Assembly: GCA_019115765.1 (NCBI GenBank)
Contig: DXCZ01000002.1
Coordinates: 20,375-84,374 of the forward strand
Reading direction: 5' to 3'
Origin: Candidatus Mediterraneibacter stercoripullorum
GTDB taxonomy: Bacteria; Bacillota; Clostridia; Lachnospirales; Lachnospiraceae
DNA length: 64,000 nt
The number at the start of each line of letters is the position of its first letter. Within the stretch, counting starts at the first letter, position 1. Under the pieces are notes generated by a model, which ran no database searches, was not told where the DNA came from, and saw only the letters and a program-made list of their open reading frames with translations. The position numbers and the translations under genes are program-made. Positions 4 through 63,237 of the stretch are shown here, piece by piece.

Positions 4-1653
4 TCAGAATTTTCCCAAAATTTCCTCTTCCCTCTTATGACAAGTCAATATTATAACCTGTCTTTGCTGCCTGCTCAACCATTTTAGCACACAATTCAGT
101 CTTTTCTCATCATAAAATGCAAATGTTTCATCCAGGATCAGCGGCATCTCTTCCTCTTGAAGGATCTCTGCGGCGGCCATCCTCACGGCAAAATATACCT
201 GCTCCAGTGTGCCCCTGCTCAGCCGCTCAGCCGGAATCCTGCGGACGCCGTCCCAGACTGATATCTGGTTTCCTTCGCTTACATCCATACTCCTGTATCT
301 TCCGTCTGTCAGCTCCGCGAATATATCCGAAGCCCTCTGATTCAGGAGACCTGCTGTCTGTCCGCCCATCTCCCGGGCGGCAGCTTTCATCTGCTCCTCT
401 GCCAGTTCGAGAACCCGCTTTCTTTCTTCCAGCGCTTTCTCCTCTTCTCCTGGCCCCATCTCATCATACTGTTCTTTCAGATTACTGCAGCGGATCTCCT
501 TTTCCTTCCACTCTGCACGGATCCGGTCCATCTCCCAGCGGATACGTGCCTTCTCCTCACGACTCCGTTCTGACCTTTCCTCACCCTGTTCATCATCTTT
601 TTTCTCATCCGGTTTCACGCCGGCTCTCTTTCCGGCATAGCTGCCGCGCATTTTCCTGCTGTCTTCCTTCCTTTCTTTTATATAGGAAGATATTCCTGCG
701 CCAAGAAGGAGCAGACCGATCACAAATATGATCCCGGCGATCACCACGAACGGCAGTCCCGGTCCGGTCAGATTCATTCCTCCCATAAATGCGCCCCACG
801 CCGCGCCGATGATCCCGATCAGGACGCCTGCCGCCCCGGCGGACAGCAGACTGCGGGCATTTCCTTCAGGCGCATCTTCTGTTTCCGGCTCTTCCTCGTC
901 TACAGAAAACTGCCCGGCTTTTTCCCGTTTTTTCTCTTCCTCTTTATATTGTTTCCATTCCCTGGAATTCCGATCGTACTCTTTGCGGAGCCTGTCCATA
1001 TCGTCCTCCAGGTATCTGCATTCCTGCAGGAGTCTTCCCCGCTGCTTCTCCCGTTCCGATACGGCTTCCCTGAGCTGCCGTTCAACATTCTTCCGCTTCT
1101 CATGAATATCTGACAGTGCTCCGTTAAGATCGATCTCTCCTCCGGTCTCGTAATAATTGGCTGCATAGTTTTTCAGGCTTTCAGCCAGTCCCTGCCCGGG
1201 CTTTGCCATCAGCTGCCCCACAGAAACCGTACTGTCGAAAAGTGCAGGAGTCATCCCGCCCAGCAGCATATCCAGATCTCCGTGCTCTACAGACAGCTCC
1301 TCCCCGTCATCCTCACAGACCAGAGAAGCAGACTTTCCGCCCCGGTCAAATCTTCTCTCCAGCCGGAAGCTCCTGCCCCCACAGACAAATCTCATAACGC
1401 CGGCATAGCTGCCCGGATTATCCCACGGTTCATACCGGGTAAAGTCATCCTTTGCCGCTGCCTTTCCTCTGCCCCGCTCCAGGCCGAAGAGCATGGCGCG
1501 GATAAATGCATGGATCGTGGACTTTCCAAATTCATTTTCCCCATATATAACCTGCACGCCGTCGTACAGACGGAAATGTTCTTCTGTAAATTTTCCAAAA
1601 TTCTTTATGTACAGTTCTGTTATGACCATCATTTTACCCCCTGCGGTTTGCAA
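4..1653 (-). CDS. AAA-family ATPase, SbcC/YhaN-like DNA repair ATPase
   Basis: N-terminal IKNFGKF..YGENEFGKST Walker A, coiled coil, two central TM segments, C-terminal LSRGTLEQVYFAVRMA signature and LILDETFA; overlaps an SbcD-like gene. Confidence 0.85.
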   Translation of the reverse strand: MQTAGGKMMVITELYIKNFGKFTEEHFRLYDGVQVIYGENEFGKSTIHAFIRAMLFGLERGRGKAAAKDDFTRYEPWDNPGSYAGVMRFVCGGRSFRLERRFDRGGKSASLVCEDDGEELSVEHGDLDMLLGGMTPALFDSTVSVGQLMAKPGQGLAESLKNYAANYYETGGEIDLNGALSDIHEKRKNVERQLREAVSEREKQRGRLLQECRYLEDDMDRLRKEYDRNSREWKQYKEEEKKREKAGQFSVDEEEPETEDAPEGNARSLLSAGAAGVLIGIIGAAWGAFMGGMNLTGPGLPFVVIAGIIFVIGLLLLGAGISSYIKERKEDSRKMRGSYAGKRAGVKPDEKKDDEQGEERSERSREEKARIRWEMDRIRAEWKEKEIRCSNLKEQYDEMGPGEEEKALEERKRVLELAEEQMKAAAREMGGQTAGLLNQRASDIFAELTDGRYRSMDVSEGNQISVWDGVRRIPAERLSRGTLEQVYFAVRMAAAEILQEEEMPLILDETFAFYDEKRLNCVLKWLSRQQRQVIILTCHKREEEILGKF

Positions 1654-4256: not shown

Positions 4257-4584
4257 ACCAAAAAAACTCCTTCAATGATGTATTCCAGCTTTTCTGCTGT
4301 CAATATTGACATTATAGCACCCTGCGGGCAAACCGTAAACAAATTTCAGTTTCCTATTGTAAAATCCGACAGGGATGATAATATATGATGTTGCCAGGGT
4401 CAAAAGGTCGTGCGTTTTATGTGGACATGAAAAGGCATGATCCGGGGACCTGGAAAAACATAAGAAAGCAGCGCAACAGGGCGGATTTCAAATGTTTTTT
4501 TGGATTGCGGGAGCATGCAATGCAATACACTGCAACAGTATACACTCATCCGCAACAGCATTACATCGAAAGGAAATGAGAGTT

Positions 4585-61630: not shown

Positions 61631-61948
61631 TTAAGCTCTGACATTATTCTCCATTCTGTCATAATACTGGAGCAGGCGGTTTCTCTCTTCCTTCGCGCCG
61701 CTTCTTCCCGTATCAAGCTTTCTGCTGCCGACAATCAGCTCGTCTATACCAACCTGAAAGAGCTGGCTTAACGCATATAGATTATCAACATTCGGAACAT
61801 TAACGCCATTCAGCCAGCGATACACCGTCTGTACACAATTCAGATCCAGATAGCGTCTGACATCCGCTGCTGTCATCTGATGAAGATCCATAAAAAACTG
61901 AATCCTTTCTCCTGTCCTTTTCATATCAATAGCAGGAAACGCTGCCAT
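61631..61948 (-). CDS. XRE-type helix-turn-helix protein
   Basis: RIQFFMDLHQMTAADVRRYLDLNCVQTVYRWLNGVNVPNVDNLYALSQLFQVGIDELI. Confidence 0.85.
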   Translation of the reverse strand: MAAFPAIDMKRTGERIQFFMDLHQMTAADVRRYLDLNCVQTVYRWLNGVNVPNVDNLYALSQLFQVGIDELIVGSRKLDTGRSGAKEERNRLLQYYDRMENNVRA

Positions 61949-62105
61949 AATACCACCTCCTTGGAACCGAATATTTTCACCTTTTAATTACCGTTATTAT
62001 ATCTTATATTACACACTTTGTCATTGAATTTGAAATTCAATTTTAATTATATTATCTGAATATTCTGTATTTTATTTGTTTTTTATTTTTTTATCAGATT
62101 TTATA

Positions 62106-62134
62106 TTGACATTTCATATTTTAAGAGTTATTAT
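62106..62134 (+). promoter_or_regulatory. Strong sigma-70/A-type promoter
   Basis: TTGACA - 17 nt - TATTAT. Confidence 0.75.
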
Positions 62135-62140
62135 ATATAC

Positions 62141-62362
62141 AACAAAAGAAAAGGAGGACGGACCACCAAAAACATAATTTAAAACCCGGAAATATTAAAG
62201 AAAAGAGGTATAGTCCAATGGGAAGGTAAATTATTAAATTCAAAAAACACTATTTGAAAAAATAGTTTCAGATAGATATCAAGTAAATAAGGAGGTCAGG
62301 CCAATGGATGTAATAAGCTGAAAATCCACTGTACGAAATGAAATCGATACAGTGGATTTTTT
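62141..62362 (+). ncRNA. Candidate small transcript with tiny ORFs
   Basis: Bounded by promoter 62106-62134 and terminator 62321-62362; RBS-start modules AGAGGTATAGTCCAATG (ORF MGR*) and GGAGGTCAGGCCAATG (ORF MDVIS*). Confidence 0.5.
62321..62362 (+). terminator. Intrinsic terminator
   Basis: AAAATCCACTGTACGAaatgaaaTCGATACAGTGGATTTTTT. Confidence 0.85.
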
Positions 62363-62395
62363 ATGTGCTGATATTTTCTCTGTCTTAATTTCCCC

Positions 62396-63237
62396 ATGAC
62401 TCTGGGACAGTTCACTATCTTTTTCAGCATCCTGCTGATCCTGATCCAGCTGATCATCCTGCGCAGGAATTTCAAAGCCGAACATCTGCTGCAGATTCCC
62501 ATCTCCATCCTGTTCGGATATTTTATCGATCTGACAATGGTCATGCTGGGATTCGTAAATCCTGAAGCCTATATTTTTAAGATCATCTATCTGCTCATCG
62601 GATGTGTGATCCTGGGATTCGGCGTCTATATCGAGGTGCTGGCAAATGTAGCCATGCTTCCGGGAGAGTCCTTTGTCCGGGCGGTATCTTCAACATGGCA
62701 CACTGAGTTCGGCTCTACTAAAGTAGCTTTCGACGTCTCTCTGACAGTCATCGCAGGACTGCTTTCCCTGATCTTTGCCCATCGGCTGGACGGAGTTCGG
62801 GAAGGTACTATCATAGCCGCTCTCCTCGTAGGAATTATCGCCAGACTTTTCGGACGTGCTCTGGCCTTTGCCGAGCCGCTCCTCTTTCCACAATCTGCTG
62901 CAAAAAAATTAGATGAAGGAACCGGTTCTGATGCGGTTGCTTCAGACAACTCCATTGTGATCGTGATCGGACGCCAGTACGGAAGCGGCCAAACTGCCTG
63001 AAGGTCTATCTTCACGCGCCGGAGGCTTACCGCATCAGACGGATCATGGAACGGGAAAATCTTTCCGAAACCGATGCTCTGCAGAAGATCCGCCGCATGG
63101 ACCGCCGTCGTTCCGACAACTATCACTATTATACTCGGCGGATCTGGGGACATTCCGAGAACTACGACCTGACACTGGATACCAGCATCGGTGAAGAGGC
63201 AGTACAGAAGATCATCAGGGATATGCTGGCTGTTTAG
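62396..63237 (+). pseudogene. YczE/YitT-like membrane domain (DUF6198-like) fused to cytidylate-kinase-like domain; truncated and internally deleted
   Basis: Membrane part lacks N-terminal ~45 aa; reads to GRQYGSGQTA* (P-loop start), then another frame continues LKVYLHAPEAYRIRRIMERENLSETDALQKIRRMDRRRSDNYHYYTRRIWG..DMLAV*. Confidence 0.7.

Follow-up and report, generated by a model that had tools for sequence, protein, structure and literature searches.

In Gram-positive bacteria, messenger RNAs (mRNAs) can be stabilised by Stab-SDs and other elements that depend on a ribosome-binding site (RBS), which in the known cases are sited in mRNA 5' leaders. Minigenes of a few codons are a second point of comparison: those with a strong Shine-Dalgarno (SD) sequence and a UAA stop are reported to favour peptidyl-tRNA drop-off and to be able to work in cis, perhaps by making the RNA more stable (PMC8708949). 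We describe here a locus of Candidatus Mediterraneibacter stercoripullorum, found in a stretch of 64,000 nucleotides (contig DXCZ01000002.1, positions 20,375 to 84,374, hereafter the window) of a draft genome that is 89% complete. Positions 62106-62364 (+) of the window comprise a promoter, a predicted transcript of about 223 nt and a terminator; judged from its sequence, this interval is a free-standing RNA gene. The RNA appears built to engage ribosomes and not to make protein, because its strong RBS-like modules either have no start codon or specify peptides of just two to six residues. We propose that it acts in trans, its repeated modules capturing or idling ribosomes, and we give this reading a probability of about 0.4.

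The promoter (TTGACA at 62106-62111, a 17-nt spacer, and TATTAT at 62129-62134) matches the consensus at 11 of 12 positions. The AT-rich tract on its 5' side may contribute to its activity, and the RNA start was placed about 7 nt past the -10 element. Three related modules follow (Table 1). The last can also be written AAGGAGGTCAGGCCA-ATG-GAT-GTA-ATA-AGC-TGA, and the final A of its stop codon is the first base of the terminator stem. This stem is a perfect one of 13 bp (62321-62333/62348-62360); an automated terminator scan had missed 62321-62360 because the 14-nt loop is longer than the scan allows. An earlier note on this DNA had pointed to the promoter, to three RBS-like modules of which the two with ATG give only MGR* and MDVIS*, to a last stop running into a strong intrinsic terminator, and to a small divergent XRE gene, and in all of this it was correct. 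The predicted RNA folds better than shuffled sequences do (z = -5.0). In the small internal hairpin, six of the seven pairs are invariant and one covaries (C-G/U-A); since the 3' hairpin is almost invariant, covariation lends the structure little support.

Table 1. Features of the RNA locus and its 5' flank, in window coordinates
Feature	Position	Strand	Basis
XRE-type regulator, outside the conserved unit	61631..61948	-	Pfam HTH_3 and HTH_26
AT-rich UP-like tract TTTTTTATCAGATTTTATA, 5' of the -35 element	62080..62105	+	sequence kept across the genus alignment, recognisable in other genera
Sigma-A type promoter, TTGACA-N17-TATTAT	62106..62134	+	TTGAC[AT]-16..18-TA[TA][TA]AT pattern in 43/45 homologous loci
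Predicted small RNA, ~223 nt	62141..62364	+	promoter-to-terminator interval
Module 1: AAGGAGGACGGACCACCAAAAACATAA, strong SD without start codon, in-frame TAA (AAGGAGGACGGA-CCA-CCA-AAA-ACA-TAA)	62151..62177	+	
Module 2: SD and 3-codon minigene, AGAGGTATAGTCCA-ATG-GGA-AGG-TAA (MGR*, reading frame 62218-62229)	62204..62229	+	
Small hairpin ACTATTT/AAATAGT, then conserved ATAGATA	62249..62266	+	fold and genus alignment
Module 3 (last): SD and 5-codon minigene, GGAGGTCAGGCCA-ATG-GAT-GTA-ATA-AGC-TGA (MDVIS*, reading frame 62304-62321)	62291..62321	+	
Intrinsic terminator AAAATCCACTGTA...TACAGTGGATTTTTT	62321..62364	+	stem retained in all 33 sequences

A DNA search matched 47 of the 58 Mediterraneibacter species; identity was 74-90% for nearly all of them, which places the unit far above chance. 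Kept in the genus alignment are the promoter and the T-rich tract 5' of it, the three modules, the small hairpin and the terminator; the flanks are unrelated. The family was sampled with one genome per genus. A covariance model of the 3' part added 17 Lachnospiraceae genera, and the module pattern was present in 110 of the 299 genera of this family, compared with 17, by our count, for a reversed control. When the sequence model covered just the module, matches rose to 153 of 299 genera and to 55 of 58 members of the genus, including all 35 high-quality genomes (E-values of such custom-built models are rough). Most members of the genus have a second paralogue. In the source genome (G000), this type II copy lies outside the window (locus L132, G000:C105:13206-13251, minus strand) and has the same promoter style, the module GGAGGTACAGACCACCGGGAACATAA and a last open reading frame (ORF), MIEISE*, flush with the terminator; it also contains an internal hairpin, CATAA-TGACGAGAAAG-TTATG. 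Outside the Lachnospiraceae, three genomes of two other Clostridia families (L271, L275 and L276) share the plan, that is, GAGGTACAGTCCAATG or AAGGTACAGTCCAATG with MKS*, MRK* or MRI*, then a body, then a last ORF that enters the terminator. In these three, the body has a conserved ACACGACGGTG followed by a stretch resembling ATATAGAT, and the last ORFs (MMLDTKSEQR*, MLDIKIEQK* and MNTDFKSNRK*) have a stop codon that falls within the basal part of the terminator stem. Other class-level matches were mostly weak, and two of them, L270 and L273, which are without the architecture, were excluded from the count.

An invariant 11-nt loop, UGACGAGAAAG, is found on varied stems (GAUA/UAUC, CUG/CAG, CAUAA/UUAUG) inside a number of the RNAs (L106, L118, L119, L120, L125, L102, L111, L150, L165 and others), and in L148 and L187 it tops a 12-bp stem resembling the terminator. 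This hairpin looks like a recognition element for a protein or an RNA.

Plasmids, phages and IMG/VR gave no match to the RNA, and a phage or plasmid origin was rejected on these searches. No Rfam 15 family scored above its gathering threshold for this RNA, in the window or at about 40 homologous loci, and no known RNA matching it was found in the open-access papers searched; its novelty is judged against these two sources.

What is conserved in the tiny ORFs, to judge from the alignments, is the stop codons and not the length of a protein. The MGR ORF is exactly three codons long in each of the 43 genus relatives, although its third codon varies (AGG, AAG, AGA, AGT, TAT, TAC, TGG) and its stop may be TAA or TGA (UAA in 40 of the 43); the five codons of the MDVIS-type last ORF are preserved in all 43. 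This genus-wide conservation supports the small, previously unannotated RNA with genuine 3- and 5-codon ORFs that the earlier note had suggested. Its alternative, the 5' remnant of a gene lost by deletion, fails because the relatives hold tiny ORFs of identical length, none of the 43 having a normal-length ORF from MGR or MDVIS. A type I toxin-antitoxin system, judged by its ORFs, was likewise rejected: there is no hydrophobic toxin ORF, all relatives have the 3- and 5-codon ORFs, and the unit carries no ORF of greater length on the RNA strand.

In more distant members, the AUG modules encode MG*, MA*, MGR*, MGH*, MGC*, MGK*, MGT*, MAR* and MKS*, among others, and a stop occurs within three codons in 20 of 21, compared with 1 of 42 for the other two frames (p 3e-14). 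An SD followed by an ORF of two or three codons with an in-frame stop, as in bar-type minigenes, is present in 43 of 43 genus sequences and 20 of 21 elsewhere. Of 69 loci found via module 1, with the start picked by SD spacing alone, 62 have the stop of the last ORF between -4 and +6 nt relative to the terminator stem; shifted frames gave 16 and 5 (p ~2e-26). As the loci of the family are related, these counts are not fully independent. The last ORF starts with ATG (55) or TTG (14), swaps between the two occur, and most start codons lie 15-20 nt away from the stem. Two recurrent last peptides, MDEIV and MDSIV, are encoded with synonymous changes (GAT/GAC, GAA/GAG, AGC/AGT, GTT/GTA), and all three stops are used. 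From these stop-position and codon statistics we conclude that sequence evolution shows the last minigene to be translated, and that the inner modules are under selection against translation beyond two or three codons.

Translation of the last minigene could also mean that its peptide, of 5 to 14 residues (MDEIV, MDSIV, MIEESK and others), is the product and that the modules are its leader. The synonymous changes would fit such a micropeptide gene, as would the acidic residue that is second or third in the peptide at most loci, and in genus g208 (L267, L268, L269, L272 and L274) the last ORFs start with TTG, are 13-14 codons long, vary in length by whole codons and end in YSV* (the inner modules there being, for example, CCA-AAG-GGA-TAG). 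Against this, the peptides diverge widely between genera (MDVIS, MTEPVK, MKLLNYH, MEAEHS), their ends are set by the start of the terminator, and the start-less modules are left unexplained. We consider a micropeptide gene distinctly improbable.

The start-less modules, for which the family-wide consensus of module 1 is AGGAGGTACGGACCACCRAAAACNTAA, carry CCR or AAR in place of ATG, and their in-frame TAA is mostly kept at the matching position; the free base is the one preceding this TAA, the would-be wobble position of a codon ACN. In about half of them the SD match spans 8-9 nt. Their predicted duplex with the anti-SD has a median of -14.6 kcal/mol, compared with -11.95 kcal/mol for the genes of the window, the latter value taking, for each gene, whichever of up to six candidate starts pairs best. 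By predicted duplex energy, they combine a pairing stronger than that of ordinary genes with the lack of a productive start, as would an anti-SD decoy.

The surroundings of the RNA bear on a further possibility, namely that it is a leader peptide or attenuator acting in cis on a downstream gene, or the partner of the adjacent XRE gene. The last ORF abuts the terminator as in ribosome-controlled attenuators, and a codirectional gene begins at 62396. However, just 2 of the 45 homologous loci have the XRE gene, the 5' neighbours being more often VanZ (by Pfam in the window) or a YfcE-like phosphoesterase (named from its sequence), and the 3' neighbours have no shared identity between loci. Codirectional and convergent 3' neighbours number 14 and 29 in the genus (n = 43), and 45 and 40 family-wide (n = 85), so that there is no conserved codirectional downstream gene of the kind an attenuator would have. 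Because neighbours vary in both identity and orientation, XRE partnership and general cis attenuation are in effect excluded, as very improbable. An antiterminator formed by AUGGAU and the AUCCA of the terminator arm was also rejected: it would have 5 bp at most, and the arm sequence changes in other genera while the ORF stays. Among the functions listed in the earlier note, the leader peptide and the RNA or peptide partner of the XRE protein are thus not supported, and ribosome sequestration is retained as the leading mechanism.

The codirectional 3' gene (62396-63237, +) is decayed; it combines a membrane part (DUF6198) and a cytidylate-kinase-like part, and is split into frames of 201 aa and 63 aa, whereas relatives (for example L024 and L030) have a single ORF of 435-450 aa. 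Elsewhere in the window, at 4389-4537 (+), lies a Clostridiales-1 RNA (RF01699, 69 bits), an orphan of unassigned function.

How might the RNA work? Each module offers an SD stronger than that of most genes, followed by CCA and then by no start or by a minigene of two or three codons, mostly UAA-ended; the last has a minigene of five or six codons, on which an initiating ribosome would abut or reach the terminator hairpin. The 30S subunits or 70S ribosomes would bind the modules without protein output, and the RNA would thereby titrate or idle ribosomes, possibly helped by peptidyl-tRNA drop-off. The outcome would be a tuning of global or competing translation, as 6S RNA does for RNA polymerase. 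The number of modules varies from 2 to 7 among members, as in titrating RNAs, and no neighbour is conserved, both of which favour the proposal. Sequence evolution can be said to show that the RNA is conserved as a gene of its own, that its last minigene is translated, that early stops are enforced and that the modules have been amplified (2-7), and ribosome engagement without output seems to be the reading that covers most features. Slightly more tentative is the broader proposition that the RNA represents a new class of regulatory RNA in bacteria and is to the ribosome what 6S RNA is to RNA polymerase: an array of start-less RBSs and 2-6-codon minigenes that would capture or idle ribosomes in trans, and that is conserved throughout the Lachnospiraceae and occurs in some other Clostridia at least.

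The main rival would be a ribosome-stabilised small RNA (sRNA), whose modules and minigenes load ribosomes in cis purely as a shield against RNases, another part (the hairpin at 62249-62266, ATAGATA, the conserved terminator arm or the body) pairing with targets. A two-codon minigene is reported to boost expression in cis, perhaps because it shields the mRNA from an endonuclease (PMC8708949), and within the genus the hairpin, ATAGATA and the terminator stem are near-invariant in primary sequence. Across genera, however, the modules and the last minigene are kept while the body and terminator sequences change, the opposite of what a conserved seed predicts, and one stabiliser would suffice where up to seven modules are found. 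We regard this rival as possible, but would not expect it to be correct.

Several points weigh against ribosome capture. The predicted RNA would have to be abundant enough to matter against thousands of ribosomes, and some genera carry a long body with other conserved hairpins between the modules. Furthermore, the conserved core UACGGACCACC exceeds the needs of a plain SD, and extra pairing of the 16S tail through CCACC/CCA was no better than for spacer shuffles (mean rank 0.45). As further 16S pairing does not explain this core, something other than rRNA may read it. The modules could then be RBS mimics forming a sponge, either for a CU-rich sRNA or for an RNA-binding protein recognising GGUACGGACCACC, and the constraint on the repeated consensus beyond the SD, together with the variable copy number, is consistent with this. 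Hfq, however, is encoded in 0 of 58 genus genomes, ruling out an Hfq sponge or an Hfq-dependent sRNA, and CsrA, found in 11 of the 58, is absent from 47 including the source genome, for which a CsrA sponge is ruled out; both are excluded as module readers here because the genome lacks them. Since a sponge would also leave unexplained the enforced stops after two or three codons and the translated last ORF, we consider it rather unlikely.

This RNA, which has no entry in Rfam, occurs in roughly half of the genera sampled from a dominant family of the human gut, and is neither non-coding nor a usual mRNA. If ribosome capture is correct, it would represent a new mode of translation control, ribosome titration by minigenes, and natural selection would be acting on ORFs of 2-6 codons, below any annotation threshold.

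Among known systems, Clostridiales-1 (RF01699) and Gut-1 (RF01706) are also orphan intergenic RNAs of Clostridia, but their sequences are distinct, the present RNA having no Rfam match. The bar-type minigenes of phage lambda and synthetic two-codon minigenes resemble the inner modules in their strong SD, ORF of two or three codons and mostly UAA stop; here, in contrast, a predicted stand-alone chromosomal RNA combines several minigenes with modules that have no start, and its last minigene is fused to the terminator. For the known minigenes of axe-txe and ler, the target is a gene downstream in cis, unlike the trans action proposed here. A Stab-SD shares the strong SD without productive translation, but the present RNA is made up entirely of modules and ends in a terminator. 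With the titrating RNAs CsrB and RsmZ, the RNA has in common that a single free-standing molecule bears repeated binding modules in varying number; it differs in that CsrA is absent here and in most relatives, and in that the modules are RBSs and minigenes, not GGA hairpin loops. The proposed logic is shared with 6S RNA, in which an RNA mimic of a natural nucleic-acid substrate sequesters a core machine; the two are unrelated in sequence and structure, and the machine would here be the ribosome and not RNA polymerase.
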